NCBI RefSeq assembly: GCF_025980345.1
Contig: NZ_JAPDUI010000023.1
Location: forward strand, 1-39,581
DNA length: 39,581 nucleotides
From: Arenimonas sp. GDDSR-1
Lineage (GTDB): Bacteria > Pseudomonadota > Gammaproteobacteria > Xanthomonadales > Xanthomonadaceae
Direction: 5' to 3'
Shown: one piece after another, positions 2,455-10,558 of the stretch
Layout of the letters: each line of letters starts with the position of its first letter
Numbering within the stretch: position 1 is the stretch's first letter
Notes under the pieces: generated by a model
Told to the model about the DNA's origin: nothing
Database searches by the model: none
What the model saw: the letters and a program-made list of their open reading frames with translations, nothing else
Position numbers and translations under genes: made by a program

Positions 2455-2573
2455 TGCCTTCCCGCAGGGTCGTGGCTCATGGGTTTGGCGGCAGGGGGCC
2501 TGGTTGGATTATGCATGCCTCAATTATAGCCAAGTTGCGGCGGAATCCGGCTCTTTATGGTCTAATACGCACT

Positions 2574-4550
<1,977 letters not shown>

Positions 4551-4561
4551 TATCCTAGACA

Positions 4562-4577
4562 GGCGCCGTTCGGCGCC
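4562..4577 (+). other. Short GC-rich hairpin between thiC and the fusion gene
   Basis: GGCGCC-GTTC-GGCGCC forms a perfect 6-bp stem with a 4-base loop in the 48-bp gap after thiC. No T-run follows, so it is not a clear intrinsic terminator; it may only weaken read-through or stabilise the thiC transcript end. Confidence 0.35.
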
Positions 4578-4598: not shown

Positions 4599-6428
4599 AT
4601 GAAACTCGATTATCCGTTCATCCAGCTGCCGCTGACTTTCGATGCCGACCGCCTGTTGAAAGAGGTCTCCGCCATCGATGCCTCGGCCTGGCAGCCGCAC
4701 CCGCAGGGCTATGCCGGCAATTTCGCGATGACCCTGATCACGCCGAACGGCATCAACAACAACGACGAAATGTCGGGCCCGATGATGCCGACGGACTACC
4801 TGAAAAGCTGTCCGTACCTGATGGAAGTGCTGCGCTGCATCGGCGGCGTCTGGGGCCGTTCGCGCCTGATGAAATTATCCGGACAGGCCGAGGTCACGCC
4901 CCATATCGATACCAATTACTACTGGCGCGAGCGCATGCGCGTGCATGTGCCCATCGTCACCCAGCCCAGCGTGCGCTTCTACTGCGGCGAGCAGGACATG
5001 CACATGCCGGCCGGGGAATGCTGGATCTTCGACACCTGGAGCATGCACAACGTCGTCAACGATGCCAGCGAAGAACGCATCCATCTGGTCGCCGACACCG
5101 TCGGCGGCGAGGAATTCTGGCAGTGGTTCCGCGCCGGCCGCCCGCTCGGCATGGATATTCCCGGCTGGAGCCCGCAGCACATTCCGGTGTTCCACCGCGA
5201 GCCGCCGCCGCTCCGGCTGGAGACGCAGAATCTTCCCGAGGTGATGACGCCCTGGGAAATGCGCGAACACTTCAGTTTCCTGTTCAATGAGGCAGCCCCC
5301 CATCCGGACCTGCAAGCACTTTCTGCAATCACCTACGATTTGACGCTGGCTTGGCAGGCGCTGTGGACGGAATGCGGCAGCAATCCTGCTGCCTACCCGC
5401 GATACGCGAGACTCCGAGACGACTTCATACAGACTTTGGGCCGTTTCGAGTACCTGCAATTGAGAAGCGGTTATCCGCTGACAAGAGGAATTATCCAAGG
5501 ACTGATGCTGCACTGCCTGAAGGATGCCAAACGCACGTTCAAGGAGCACCGCGATACCGGCCGGGAATCGCCGGCATCACGGCCCGAGGCCGGCGGACGC
5601 ATCGAGCGTCCGGTCATTCTGGTCAGCGCCCCCCGTTCGGGTTCGACCATGTTCTTCGAGGCGCTGGAGAAAAGTCCGGATCTGTGCAGCATCGGCGGCG
5701 AGAGCCACGGCCTGATGGAGAGCATCAGTATGCTGCATCCGGGCTCGCGCAACTTCGATTCCAATGTGCTGGCCGCCAAGCATTGTTCGCAGGACATCGC
5801 GCGCGAACTGCGGTTCCGTTTCTGGGAGAGCGCTTTCAGGCCGGACGGTACCAAGCCCGGAAATGGAGCGCCGATGCGGCTGCTGGAAAAGACTCCGAAG
5901 AACGCGCTGCGCATTCCGTTCATGAAGCAGTTGTTTCCCGATGCGCTGTTCGTCTATCTCTACCGGGATCCGAAGCAGGTGCTCGCCAGCATGATCGATG
6001 CCTGGCAATCCGGAAAATTCCGCACTTATCCGGACCTTCCCGGCTGGCCGGGCCTACCATGGTCGCTTCTGCTGACGCCGGGCTGGCGCGACATCGCAGG
6101 GCAGCCCCTGCATCACATCGTGGCGCATCAGTGGGCGACGGCAACCCGGATCATGCTCGACGATCTGGAAGCGCTGGATCCGCAGTGCGTGGTGAAGGTT
6201 CGTTATGAAGATCTGCTGGCCGGACCAAAGGCCGAGCTCGACCGGGTCTGCGCCTTCTGCGGAATCGCACAGGTTCCGCACTTCGATGACCTGCCGCTGT
6301 CCAAACATACCCTGACGCTGCCGGATCCTGAAAAATGGAAGCGCCATGAAGCCCTGATCAACGAAATATGGCCGATTGTCGCCGGGCAGGCGGCGCGCGC
6401 CGAGCGTTTTATCGCAACCGATTCCTGA
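4599..6428 (+). CDS. Aspartyl/asparaginyl beta-hydroxylase-like + sulfotransferase fusion protein
   Basis: A 609-residue two-domain protein. Residues about 1-200 look like the aspartyl/asparaginyl beta-hydroxylase (Asp_Arg_Hydrox, Fe(II)/2-oxoglutarate) family: H102-I-D104, H150 as second histidine ligand, and R160 in an RIHLVAD block that would hold 2-oxoglutarate. A linker of about 130 residues with little similarity to known domains follows. Residues about 338-605 form a PAPS-dependent sulfotransferase: the 5'-phosphosulfate loop SAPRSGST at 343-350, and a YRDPKQVLASM block that fits the 3'-phosphate-binding R...S motif. No signal peptide or membrane helix is visible, so it is probably cytoplasmic. 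The domain pairing suggests hydroxylation then sulfation of one substrate, which is unknown. Its 3' end overlaps the convergent acetyltransferase gene by 20 bp. Confidence 0.85.
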   Translation: MKLDYPFIQLPLTFDADRLLKEVSAIDASAWQPHPQGYAGNFAMTLITPNGINNNDEMSGPMMPTDYLKSCPYLMEVLRCIGGVWGRSRLMKLSGQAEVTPHIDTNYYWRERMRVHVPIVTQPSVRFYCGEQDMHMPAGECWIFDTWSMHNVVNDASEERIHLVADTVGGEEFWQWFRAGRPLGMDIPGWSPQHIPVFHREPPPLRLETQNLPEVMTPWEMREHFSFLFNEAAPHPDLQALSAITYDLTLAWQALWTECGSNPAAYPRYARLRDDFIQTLGRFEYLQLRSGYPLTRGIIQGLMLHCLKDAKRTFKEHRDTGRESPASRPEAGGRIERPVILVSAPRSGSTMFFEALEKSPDLCSIGGESHGLMESISMLHPGSRNFDSNVLAAKHCSQDIARELRFRFWESAFRPDGTKPGNGAPMRLLEKTPKNALRIPFMKQLFPDALFVYLYRDPKQVLASMIDAWQSGKFRTYPDLPGWPGLPWSLLLTPGWRDIAGQPLHHIVAHQWATATRIMLDDLEALDPQCVVKVRYEDLLAGPKAELDRVCAFCGIAQVPHFDDLPLSKHTLTLPDPEKWKRHEALINEIWPIVAGQAARAERFIATDS

Positions 6429-6933: not shown

Positions 6934-8453
6934 CAGGGCAGCGGCAACAGGGCGATCGGCGCCCGTCCGCTGGCGGCGCTGATCAGGCCGAGCACGCGGG
7001 CCGGTTCGCTGCCCAGCCAGTCCCAGTGGAAACGCCAGGTCCAGTTGTGCGCGCCGATGGTGCCGGGCACGTTCATGCGGTGCGCGCCGTCCAGGCCGAG
7101 CACATCTTGCAGCGGAAACACCGCAATGTTCGCCACCGAATTGCAACAGGCACGGATCATCGCCCAGTGCGCATTGTCGGCATCGGTGGCCAGATAGCTG
7201 CCGGCATAGACGCGTTCGCGTTCGCTGGCCGAATCCCACCAGCCGCGCACGGTGTCGTTGTCGTGGGTGCCGGTATAGGCCACGAAATTCCGGCCCCAGT
7301 TGTGCGGCAGGAAGTCGTCGGTGCCGTCGGTGCCGAATCCGAACTGCAGGATTTTCATGCCGGGAAAGGCGAAGCCGTCGCGCAGGGCAATCACGTCTTC
7401 GGTGATCAGGCCGAGATCTTCGGCGATGATCGGAAGCCGGCCGAGCGTACGCTCGATGGCCTCGAACAGGGCCTTGCCCGGGCCGGGAATCCAGCGGCCC
7501 TCTTCGGCGGTCGGACAGCTCGCGGGAATTTCGTAATAGCCGGCGAAACCGCGGAAGTGATCGATGCGGAACACATCGGCCTGGTTCAGGGCCCGTTTCA
7601 GGCGCGCGCTCCACCAGGCATAATCCTCTTCCGCCATTTTATCCCAGCGGTACAGCGGATTGCCCCAGCGTTGTCCGGTCGGTGCCATCGCGTCCGGCGG
7701 ACAGCCGGCGACCACGGTCGGCTGGAAATGCTGATCCAGGGTGTACAGGTCCGGACGCGACCAGCAGTCGGCACTGTGATGCGCGATGAAGATCGGCAGA
7801 TCGCCCATGATAGCGATGCCCTTGCCGTTGGCGTACTGTTTGAGCGCGGCCAGTTGGGTGTCGAAGCACCATTGCACGAACGACCAGAATGCGATTTCAT
7901 CGCGCAGACGCGTGCGTGCTTCGGCCAGGGCGGCGGTTTCGCGGCGGCACAGGGCCTCCGGCCATTGCCACCAGGCCTTGCCGGCATTTTCGGTTTCCAG
8001 GGCCATGAACAGCGCGTAATCATCCAGCCAGGCGGCTTCGCGGATACGCCACGCAGAAAACGCGGCCTGCTCGCCGGCATTGTTCTTGCCTGTGAATCCG
8101 GAAAATGCCGCGCGCAGCTGGGTCAGCCGCCAGGGCACCACCTGGGCGAAATCGACGCGCAGCGCATTGAATCCGCTTTCCGGCATCGCCGGTTTGTCCA
8201 GCCAGCCGGCCATCAGCAGCGGCTCCAGCGCCACCATCAGCGGCGATCCGGCGAATGCCGACACGCTCTGGTACGGCGAATCGCCCGGACCGATCGGCGT
8301 GGTCGGCAACCACTGCCAGATTTTCTGTCCGGCGCTGGCCAGCCAGTCCACGAACCGGAATGCATCCGGTCCGAAATCGCCGATGCCGTTCGGACCGGGC
8401 AGCGAGGTGACATGCAGCAGCACACCGGCTTGGCGTTGTTGCAGATCGATCAT
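6933..8453 (-). CDS. malQ: 4-alpha-glucanotransferase (amylomaltase) MalQ
   Basis: Moves alpha-1,4-glucan segments between maltodextrins, recycling the short chains released by phosphorylase and debranching enzyme (GH77). The 506 residues match the short bacterial amylomaltase form. The catalytic triad is visible: D298 in FRIDHFRG, E345 in IAEDLG and D398 in GTHDND. The start at 8453 (MIDLQQRQAGVLLHV) is chosen because the family begins there and because its ATGA overlaps the glgX stop; a longer frame exists but its extra 43 residues have no family match. Confidence 0.96.
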   Translation of the reverse strand: MIDLQQRQAGVLLHVTSLPGPNGIGDFGPDAFRFVDWLASAGQKIWQWLPTTPIGPGDSPYQSVSAFAGSPLMVALEPLLMAGWLDKPAMPESGFNALRVDFAQVVPWRLTQLRAAFSGFTGKNNAGEQAAFSAWRIREAAWLDDYALFMALETENAGKAWWQWPEALCRRETAALAEARTRLRDEIAFWSFVQWCFDTQLAALKQYANGKGIAIMGDLPIFIAHHSADCWSRPDLYTLDQHFQPTVVAGCPPDAMAPTGQRWGNPLYRWDKMAEEDYAWWSARLKRALNQADVFRIDHFRGFAGYYEIPASCPTAEEGRWIPGPGKALFEAIERTLGRLPIIAEDLGLITEDVIALRDGFAFPGMKILQFGFGTDGTDDFLPHNWGRNFVAYTGTHDNDTVRGWWDSASERERVYAGSYLATDADNAHWAMIRACCNSVANIAVFPLQDVLGLDGAHRMNVPGTIGAHNWTWRFHWDWLGSEPARVLGLISAASGRAPIALLPLP

Positions 8454-10558
8454 GGATGAAGCTCCTGTGCAGTTTGGGCGCGCGCGAGAATCAACAGGGA
8501 GTGCGCGGGGACGGTGACATGATAAATCGGTTCGTGCGAGGCCGGCGCTTCCGGCGCGGTGGTATCGAGCACGATCCGCCACGGACCGTGCGCGAGGCGG
8601 ACCTCACGGTCGGCGTTCTGCGGATTGAACACCACGCAGGAATCCGGCACCGCCTGCGCGCCGTCCTGCACCTGGCAGGCGAAAACGCTGTCGCTGCGGT
8701 CGTGCCAGTCGGCGATGGCCATGCGTTCGCCGGCCGCGGTGTACCAGTGCAGTTGCGGCGTACAGCTGGTATCGCCCTCGTCGGCGAACCAGCGCGGATG
8801 CCGCAGCAGCGGATTGATGCGGCGCAGCGCCGCCAGCTTGGCGACCAGCAGGGCCGTGCCCGGGTCGCGGTCGCCGGCCGACCAGTCCAGCCAGCCGGTG
8901 GGATTGTCCTGGCAGTAGGCATTGTTGTTGCCGTGCTGCGAGTTGCCGAATTCATCACCGGCGCAAAGCATCGGCGTGCCCTGTGCCACCATCACCGTGG
9001 CCAGCAGGGCGCGCCGGACGCGGATGCGGGTATCGCGGATGGCGGCATCGCTGCTGTCGCCTTCGGCGCCGAAGTTGGCGCTGATTTCGTGTGCGTGGCC
9101 GTCGCGGTTGTCTTCGCCATTGGCATGGTTGTGTTTCTGCGTGAAACTCACGGCATCCTGCAGGGTGAAGCCGTCATGGGCGGCCACGAAGTTGACGCTG
9201 GCCACCGGCTGCCGGCCGCCGTGGTGGAACACATCGCTCGAGCCGGTGACGCGGCGCGCGAATTCGCCGCGGCTGACGCCGGTGCCGAGCCAGTAACCGC
9301 GCACGGCATCACGGAAGCGGTCGTTCCATTCCAGGAATTTCCCGGGAAAGCGGCCAAGCTGGTAACCTCCGGGGCCGGTATCCCAGGGTTCGGCGATCCA
9401 ATGCACATCGGCCAATACCGGATCCTGGCGCAATGCCGTGAAAAACGGCGCCGAGGCATCGAAGCCCTGGCGCGTGCGCCCGAGTACCGGCGCCAGATCG
9501 AAGCGGAAGCCGTCGACGCCCATCACTTCGACCCAGTAACGCAGCACATCCATGACGAACTGCGCCACGCGCGGATGCACCACGCGCAGGGTATTGCCGC
9601 AACCGCTGTGGTTTTCATAGCGGCTGCGGTCATCCGGCGCGAGCATGTACCAGCTGGCGTTGTCCAGGCCGCGGAAGCACAGGGTCGGACCATCGGCACC
9701 GCCCTCGGCGGTGTGGTTGAACACCACATCGATCACCACCTCCAGGCCGTGTGCATGCAGGGCCTGCACCGTCTGCCGGAACTCCTCGCGTTGCGCTTCC
9801 GGCGTCTTGGCGGCGCACAGGCGCGGATCGGGGCAGAAGAAACCGATGGGATTGTATCCCCAGTAATTCACCAGGCCTTTTTCGGCGAGATGCCGTTCGC
9901 TGAGGGCGTACTGCACCGGCAGCAGCGACAGGGTGGTGACGCCCAACCTCTTGAAGTGTGCAATCGCTGCCGGATGCGCGAGCGCCGCAAACGTGCCGCG
10001 CAGGTGATCCGGGAGGCCCGGCAGCTGCATGCTGAAGCCTTTGACATGCAGTTCGTACAGCACCACATCGGCGGCGGCATGGCGCGGCCGGTTGACGCCG
10101 CCCGGTGCCGGTCCCGGATCGGCCAGCACGCGGCTTTTCAGGGCGGTGGTACCGTTGTCGCAGGCATCGGGAAGGCGGTCGCCTTCGGGGTGGTCGCGCA
10201 GGCAGCCGTGATGCTCATCCTGCCAGTCGAAACGGCCCTCGATCGCGCGCGTGTACGGATCGAGCAGCAGTTTGTTGGCATTGAAGCGCCGTCCGCGTTC
10301 CGGCCGGTATTCGCCCTGTGCGCGGTAGCCGTAATGCAGACCCGACGTGGCGCCCTCGAGAAAGCCATGGAAGATGCCGTCGTCCGGGCCGTGCATCCGG
10401 TAGCGTTTGCGTTCGGTGACGCCATCATCGGCATACAGGCAGAGCTCGATGGCTTCGGCGCGCTGGGAAAAGACCGCAAAGTTGATCCCGCCGCTTACGG
10501 CATGCGCCCCCAGCGGCGACGCACGACCGGGCGCGAGGCGCTCGGGCAGGACGCTCAT
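8450..10558 (-). CDS. glgX: Glycogen debranching enzyme GlgX
   Basis: Hydrolyses alpha-1,6 branches of phosphorylase-limited glycogen (GH13, isoamylase type). The 702 residues carry an N-terminal carbohydrate-binding fold (about 14-120), then the (beta/alpha)8 barrel with D354 (FRFDLA, nucleophile), E390 (WIAEPWD, acid/base) and D462 (AAHDGFTL), and a C-terminal beta domain. The start at 10558 (MSVLPERLAPG) forms an ATGA overlap with the glgB stop. The sequence upstream in the same frame is inside glgB and has no family match. Confidence 0.96.
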   Translation of the reverse strand: MSVLPERLAPGRASPLGAHAVSGGINFAVFSQRAEAIELCLYADDGVTERKRYRMHGPDDGIFHGFLEGATSGLHYGYRAQGEYRPERGRRFNANKLLLDPYTRAIEGRFDWQDEHHGCLRDHPEGDRLPDACDNGTTALKSRVLADPGPAPGGVNRPRHAAADVVLYELHVKGFSMQLPGLPDHLRGTFAALAHPAAIAHFKRLGVTTLSLLPVQYALSERHLAEKGLVNYWGYNPIGFFCPDPRLCAAKTPEAQREEFRQTVQALHAHGLEVVIDVVFNHTAEGGADGPTLCFRGLDNASWYMLAPDDRSRYENHSGCGNTLRVVHPRVAQFVMDVLRYWVEVMGVDGFRFDLAPVLGRTRQGFDASAPFFTALRQDPVLADVHWIAEPWDTGPGGYQLGRFPGKFLEWNDRFRDAVRGYWLGTGVSRGEFARRVTGSSDVFHHGGRQPVASVNFVAAHDGFTLQDAVSFTQKHNHANGEDNRDGHAHEISANFGAEGDSSDAAIRDTRIRVRRALLATVMVAQGTPMLCAGDEFGNSQHGNNNAYCQDNPTGWLDWSAGDRDPGTALLVAKLAALRRINPLLRHPRWFADEGDTSCTPQLHWYTAAGERMAIADWHDRSDSVFACQVQDGAQAVPDSCVVFNPQNADREVRLAHGPWRIVLDTTAPEAPASHEPIYHVTVPAHSLLILARAQTAQELHP

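Follow-up and report, generated by a model that had tools for sequence, protein, structure and literature searches.

Two groups of described proteins stand closest to the protein analysed here. One is the PF05118 family with human AspH, the animal members of which have, judging from the titles of PDB entries, a TPR domain joined to the oxygenase; the other comprises the protein-tyrosine sulfotransferases (TPSTs) together with the sulfotransferase domains of CurM and the olefin synthases. To our knowledge, protein sulfation has rarely been reported in bacteria, and we know of no general role for it at the outer membrane. Genes of both kinds have been recorded with lasso peptides: the excerpts of one study report that CanE beta-hydroxylates Asp in a lasso peptide and mention Firmicutes lasso clusters with a putative sulfotransferase gene (PMC8498205), and a table excerpted from another shows, for Pontixanthobacter and Allopontixanthobacter, nearly consecutive clusters of a lasso-peptide B2 protein, sulfotransferases and an aspartyl beta-hydroxylase, if, as we infer, its numbering follows gene order (PMC10040529). 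A fusion of both enzymes is not described in the excerpts of PMC4414956, PMC10040529 and PMC8498205, and no account of it was found in the open-access literature, which covers few subscription papers and preprints.

Such a fusion is encoded in the window, by which we mean the whole analysed stretch of 39,581 nucleotides from Arenimonas sp. GDDSR-1. The gene, its parts and its upstream surroundings are as follows:

2569..2657, + strand: TPP riboswitch (RF00059, 63.9 bits), upstream of thiC
2691..4550, + strand: thiC, 48 nt upstream of the fusion gene and on the same strand
4562..4577, + strand: perfect 6-bp hairpin between thiC and the fusion gene, read from the sequence, with no T run and absent from the list of terminator-like structures
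4599..6428, + strand: 609-aa fusion protein with a 2OG-oxygenase half and a PAPS sulfotransferase half (ORF with ATG start, Pfam)
4599..5168, + strand: double-stranded beta-helix oxygenase domain, about residues 1-190 (Pfam, conservation, fold match)
5184..5525, + strand: helical module, about residues 196-309, assigned to the hydroxylase half (conservation, predicted model)
5526..5591, + strand: predicted flexible hinge, residues 310-331 (pLDDT under 50)
5592..6416, + strand: sulfotransferase domain, about residues 332-606 (Pfam, conservation, fold match)
within 5592..6416, + strand: PAPS loop 343-350, candidate base E368, K431, and 3'-phosphate loop R456/S464 (conservation, fold alignment)

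The initial annotation had placed the gene at 4599-6428 and read it as two domains in one chain, and both statements hold: the ORF at this position has an ATG start and encodes 609 residues, and Asp_Arg_Hydrox (PF05118) matches residues 68-167 with 59.3 bits and Sulfotransfer_3 (PF13469) residues 338-471 with 92.9 bits, far over the curated Pfam cut-offs of 22.6 and 27, respectively. No NCBIfam family scored over its cut-off with the 609-aa protein. The G+C contents of 0.62/0.45/0.77 at the three codon positions, in a window of 63% G+C overall, fit a coding gene. A genome of the same genus (G001) has a full-length copy that is 93% identical, and both Pfam families match all 38 aligned fusions at E up to 5, which rules out an assembly or frame artefact; a chance fusion was likewise ruled out by this copy and by the full-length copies found across many genomes. 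Among 50,697 phage records, two matched the fusion, each covering just 15-16% of the query.

The oxygenase half has all the residues expected of its family. H102, D104 and H150, which we take to be the Fe(II) ligands, and R160, presumably the 2OG-binding arginine, were correctly located by the initial annotation; they are invariant in 38/38 fusions (alignment A1) and kept in 95 of 103 hydroxylase rows of a wider set, and the eight rows without them are seven hydroxylase-TIGR03032 fusions lacking a sulfotransferase and one fragment. The rows of this set, as well as the 92 rows of the C half discussed below, are non-identical ORFs in which a gene cut at a sequence edge may count twice, and each set includes one fragment without the key columns. 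The HxD...H and R residues are common to AspH and the PF05118 family, and the fold of human AspH (5jqy) is matched with Z 15.1 (2.7 A, 160 residues). Residues 1-190 also match a beta-hydroxylase from a nucleoside-antibiotic pathway (7v4m; Z 16.9, 2.1 A, 153 residues), L-proline cis-4-hydroxylase (Z 15.7-15.8) and proline 3-hydroxylase (Z 15.4). Unlike its PF05118 relatives, the window protein has an extra conserved helical module and the fused sulfotransferase, and in contrast to animal AspH there is no TPR match in its 609 residues. The NCBIfam model for nonproteinogenic amino acid hydroxylases (TIGR04531) gave 12 bits, below its subfamily cut-off of 300.

The sulfotransferase half appears equally complete, and the full PAPS loop noted initially is present as SAPRSGST from residue 343. 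P345, R346, G348, S349, E368, H370, K431, R456 and S464 are invariant in 38/38 fusions (alignment A1), and among the 92 C-half rows R346, K431 and R456 are kept in 91 each, E368 in 88 and S464 in 87. The PAPS loop and R456/S464 are shared with the PF13469 relatives. The best fold match is protein-tyrosine sulfotransferase 1 (TPST1, 5wri; Z 17.7, 3.4 A, 224 residues), which is also found by profile comparison (E 2.4e-12), yet identity is only 18%; CurM is similar (4gbm; Z 16.6, 4.0 A, 223 residues; profile E 9.3e-15), and over the fold matches the TPSTs and CurM share 18-23% identity with the window domain. E368 aligns with a Glu of TPST1 and of CurM. The nodulation sulfotransferase NoeE (NF052394) scored 19 bits, under its equivalog cut-off of 500. 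As a separate observation, in genome G003 the sulfotransferase half is broken over two reading frames next to an intact hydroxylase (L017 and L073).

The two domains are separated by about 130 residues, which the initial annotation had called a linker matching nothing known. Most of this region turned out to be a helical module of the hydroxylase half, followed by a hinge of 22 residues; what stands is that a clear match in the PDB was not found. AlphaFold2 modeling on the 38 aligned fusions gave a mean pLDDT of 89.2, with four confident helices within residues 218-301 and pLDDT under 50 in one segment only (residues 310-331). The pTM was 0.56, and the predicted placement of the domains relative to each other is therefore uncertain. 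Predicted alone, the module reached a pLDDT of 89.7. Its residues E208, N211, M216 and E220 are invariant in the aligned fusions and W219 is nearly so, and since hydroxylase-only genes of about 325-355 aa include the module, it is part of the hydroxylase half. A disordered spacer is ruled out by the model and by these hydroxylase-only genes. Foldseek found no PDB match for the module at E under 1e-3, and a comparison with 29 chains gave a best Z of 5.7 over 84 residues and no clear fold match, which does not prove a new fold. The module may have a part in substrate binding.

The fusion has no hydrophobic segment (highest 19-residue mean 0.94), and neither a secretory signal nor a membrane anchor was found in its sequence; because of the missing hydrophobic segment, the protein is probably cytosolic. 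PAPS can be made by the organism, as a 696-aa frame of the window genome matches APS kinase with 234 bits. A lipid A-like acyl chain had been among the substrates considered initially. LpxO 2-hydroxylates an acyl chain, and the fusion could in principle carry out such a 2-hydroxylation with a subsequent sulfation, for which the faint match to the LpxO model (NF033391) could be quoted; however, the 12.7 bits of this match are far below the equivalog cut-off of 500, the protein lacks a membrane segment, and no lipid-synthesis gene was identified among the recurrent neighbours. We therefore disfavour a lipid-modifying enzyme and regard it as very improbable.

How tightly the two halves belong together was assessed from their distribution. 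Of the 398 genomes in the order sample, 86 gave matches at E up to 1e-20. Both halves are present in 49 of these, 33 with a fusion (one full-length match) and 16 with adjacent matches on the same strand, and a fused or adjacent pair is thus present in 49/49 genomes with both halves. The hydroxylase half alone was found in 27 genomes and the sulfotransferase half alone in 10, a division of the 86 that was counted by eye from the list of places and in which "alone" denotes the lack of a second match at E up to 1e-20, with mostly the three best candidates scored per genome. Four of the 49 genomes have an extra hydroxylase match apart from the pair (G049, G225, G363, G403), which lies beside the fusion in G363 and G403. 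For one genome of a smaller sample (G019), adjacency cannot be told, as the halves lie on two contigs, both within 200 bases of a contig end, and may be separated by an assembly break. Profile searches at E up to 1e-15 gave 32 matching genomes among 369 of the class sample (6 with both halves, 3 with the hydroxylase half, 23 with the C half only) and 22 among 398 of the phylum sample (4 with both, 14 with an N match, 4 with a C match). Beyond the order, most matches are thus lone halves, and full-length fusions were found in G550, G662, G672 and G457 and, beyond the class, in G797 and G1065, which belong to one family. Among named organisms, the fusion is carried by Rhodanobacter lindaniclasticus and, on plasmids, by Diaphorobacter sp. 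HDW4B and Asticcacaulis sp. DW145. One genome (G194) has two full-length fusion copies in tandem (L049, 8001-11873).

In several split pairs, the end of the first gene overlaps the second (L064, L065, L066, L071), and on a hydroxylase tree of 88 rows the label "fused" needs 16 changes, 13 of them forced by starred branches, which indicates that fusion, fission or loss occurred many times. For this tree, the duplicate loci L013, L016 and L017 and the partial row L160 were omitted, the tandem hydroxylase genes L057_0 and L039_0 were labelled "N", and fusion with TIGR03032 was a label of its own. The sulfotransferases of three split pairs (L068, L069, L070) have lost E368 and have changed residues in the 3'-loop, two of them also at S349, and the adjoining hydroxylase is intact. 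Frequent separation of the halves and loss of catalytic residues had both been named initially as findings that would speak against a joint route, and each was encountered in part: 37/86 genomes have one half only and lone halves dominate beyond the order, and catalytic loss affects none of the 38 fusions but the three split sulfotransferases and seven of eight hydroxylase-TIGR03032 fusions. Lone halves and lost active sites in some lineages show that the two reactions are separable in evolution.

These data have to be weighed against the idea that the protein performs two independent modifications, at different sites or on different molecules, on a scaffold shared for co-expression only. Such independence would account for the 27 and 10 order genomes with one half, the 23/32 matching class genomes with a C-half match only, the residues lost in L068-L070 beside an intact hydroxylase, and the at least 13 changes on the tree. 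Against it stand the fused or adjacent pair in every order genome with both halves and the two intact sites in every aligned fusion, and we consider it rather unlikely. The linkage and the coupled reading frames argue that the halves serve one pathway, and the many lineages that have lost one or the other suggest that either reaction can be of use by itself. Hydroxylation followed by sulfation of a single substrate, as initially proposed, is thus in agreement with the intact sites, the constant pairing and the PAPS supply, and as a strict route it is weakened by the lineages that have lost one half or its active site.

The neighbourhoods in related genomes give hints to the substrate. The initial annotation concluded that no cluster surrounds the gene and that the enzyme acts alone, which is correct for the window and does not extend to many relatives, where receptors, hydroxylases, sulfotransferases, secDF and exported proteins are found nearby. 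Of the 64 loci that span 14 kb or more and include the hydroxylase domain, many of them close relatives, 16 have a TonB-dependent receptor, recognised by similarity to four examples, at most two genes away; the receptors occupy 16/256 slots within two genes, 7/252 at a distance of three to four and 1/381 at five or more. The 21 genomes searched have 9 to 99 plug-domain matches each. The slots are not independent, as 15 of the 16 loci belong to family f1 and may derive from one ancestral arrangement; the receptor gene is, however, upstream in most of the 16 loci but downstream in L102, and separated by a TPR-sulfotransferase gene in L078. On the Asticcacaulis plasmid, a receptor, a family 2 sulfotransferase, a hydroxylase, a TPR-sulfotransferase and the fusion form, in this order, an operon on one strand; this fusion is a single 596-aa ORF that starts 3 nt past the preceding gene. 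In the gene table of this plasmid, only 8916-9791 is listed as a sulfotransferase within the ORF at 8001-9791 (L230), so the hydroxylase half is unlisted. A similar cluster is found in L160, and contig C45 of the window genome carries together a second hydroxylase (PF05118, 134 bits), another oxygenase, a TPR-sulfotransferase and a TonB-dependent receptor. Such clusters thus combine the same two chemistries beside a receptor, with the fusion itself in the operon in Asticcacaulis, whereas their other members are separate genes, some with TPR repeats or from other sulfotransferase families.

Genes for protein export and exported proteins are also among the neighbours. The order yajC-secD-secF directly precedes the pair in L071 and L072 and a lone C half in L172 and L180. 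In L059, the fusion has an Ig/beta-helix protein with an IPTL-CTERM match as its neighbour; in L074 and L075, beta-helix proteins of about 1,800 aa are encoded one gene past the fusion. An IPTL-CTERM protein gene is divergent from the fusion in Diaphorobacter, and choice-of-anchor Q proteins occur near L189, L190, L191 and L193 as well as close to the TIGR03032 gene that stands alone in L196. Many other loci have no receptor, secDF or large exported protein nearby. Neighbouring genes were called with our own codon-composition script, which missed some genes (at first the C half of L067, L069 and L070, later recovered, and nearly all genes of L187), and the labels secD, secF, yajC, ppa, hppA, araC, cadC, TPR and P4H come from reading sequences rather than from family searches.

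Based on these partners, modification of an exported or outer-membrane substrate in the cytoplasm is the most economical reading, and a cytoplasmic enzyme for such proteins is what we tentatively favour, at somewhat less than even chances. The invariant catalytic residues, the constant pairing of the halves and the protein-tyrosine sulfotransferases as best fold matches of the C domain also speak for this enzyme. The fusion would be soluble and two-headed: its N-terminal 2OG/Fe(II) oxygenase would introduce a hydroxyl group into a side chain, and its C-terminal domain would move sulfate from PAPS onto an oxygen of that molecule, be it the hydroxyl just formed or that of a Tyr, Ser or Thr nearby. 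The target would most likely be a protein bound for export or for the outer membrane, with TonB-dependent receptors and large surface repeat proteins as examples, and it would be modified prior to export. Gene linkage does not identify a substrate, since the linked receptor may instead import the molecule that is modified, and a small molecule or short peptide (a free amino acid, a siderophore-like ligand or a RiPP) could be hydroxylated and sulfated, with the receptor taking up the product, possibly again after its release. The receptor linkage suits uptake as well as modification, and together with the proline-hydroxylase-like N domain, whose nearest solved relatives also include the nucleoside-antibiotic beta-hydroxylase, it is compatible with such a substrate, for which the lasso-peptide clusters in the excerpts of PMC10040529 and the CanE reaction in those of PMC8498205 offer precedents. 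However, no protein of 350-800 aa with an SGGxD motif, a crude test for lasso cyclase-like proteins, was present among the called genes of 96 loci, and secDF and large exported repeat proteins are unlike the partners expected in a small-molecule cluster; we regard this alternative as possible but doubtful. Under our favoured reading of protein modification before export, the hydroxylase-sulfotransferase pair of related bacteria, which often lies beside genes for outer-membrane or surface proteins, may represent an undescribed surface-protein decoration, and the fusion with its intact sites near receptors and surface proteins is a concrete candidate for bacterial protein sulfation.

A third domain is found in some relatives. 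The C-terminal extensions of L074 (1,003 aa) and L077 (1,058 aa) are TIGR03032 domains (425 and 393 bits, cut-off 251.5) added to the same two domains, and those of L075 and L076 match this family by similarity. TIGR03032, which we take to be the family named DUF4915 in Pfam, is functionally uncharacterised, and no paper on TIGR03032 or DUF4915 was found in the open-access literature. In Diaphorobacter, it is encoded by a separate gene that overlaps the fusion gene by 4 nt, and 19 of the 61 genomes in the relatives sample have it; the window protein has no counterpart of this domain, and none was found in the window genome. TIGR03032 can also be fused to the hydroxylase directly. Seven such proteins (L079, L188-L193) have lost both iron-binding His residues and the Arg and have kept the rest of the domain, and only L080 among the eight hydroxylase-TIGR03032 fusions of the tree set retains the catalytic residues. 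Judged by these substitutions, the hydroxylase domain of the seven proteins is likely a pseudo-enzyme. Taken together, one can envisage a widespread system that hydroxylates and O-sulfates outer-membrane or surface proteins before export. It would consist of AspH-like and TPST-like domains that are fused or coupled in translation and to which TIGR03032 can be added; its targets would be TonB-dependent receptors and large repeat proteins, and the inactive hydroxylase fold of the hydroxylase-TIGR03032 fusions would serve to hold the substrate. In this full extent, the proposal is speculative and, on balance, unlikely. The associations nevertheless offer a functional context for the uncharacterised TIGR03032 family.

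The fusion gene of the window has no receptor or surface-protein gene next to it, which counts against the reading favoured above; downstream, on the opposite strand, a GNAT acetyltransferase gene and glycogen genes follow. The TPP riboswitch and thiC, which ends 48 nt upstream, suggest thiamine-controlled read-through into the fusion gene, and co-transcription of the two genes is possible in view of their arrangement. thiC is also directly upstream in L055, L057, L092 and L093, with gaps of 32, 7, 4 and 18 nt (gaps in the gene table run from the last sense codon and are 3 nt larger), and no functional tie between thiC and the fusion was found. The pyrophosphatase genes ppa and hppA, named from their sequences, recur as neighbours in relatives. 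They were considered as functional partners, but because many genomes have the gene flanked by thiC and ppa, we read their recurrence as a conserved order on the chromosome.

A last observation concerns a C-terminal motif resembling FxDGFE on exported proteins near fusion-type genes, which was seen in 7 of 1,086 called proteins (0.38 expected). As a general substrate tag of the enzyme it was rejected, because families f3, f4 and f9 have the motif in abundance and f1, which likewise contains the fusion, does not. As a DNA pattern, F-x-D-[GSR]-F-E occurs 22-108 times per genome in ten genomes of f3, f4 and f9 (G038, G039, G050, G044, G054, G072, G100, G086, G104, G049), 0-4 times in twelve f1 genomes, 11 times in G047 (f12) and twice in G105 (f7), and the reversed pattern 0-6 times per genome in all 24. 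It lies at most 20 residues from a stop codon at 14 of 17 places read in the ten genomes and at 16 of 32 read overall; example loci are L199, L200, L204, L205, L206, L208, L209, L222, L223, L224, L227 and L228. By its position and abundance, the motif looks like an unfamiliar sorting or anchoring tag.
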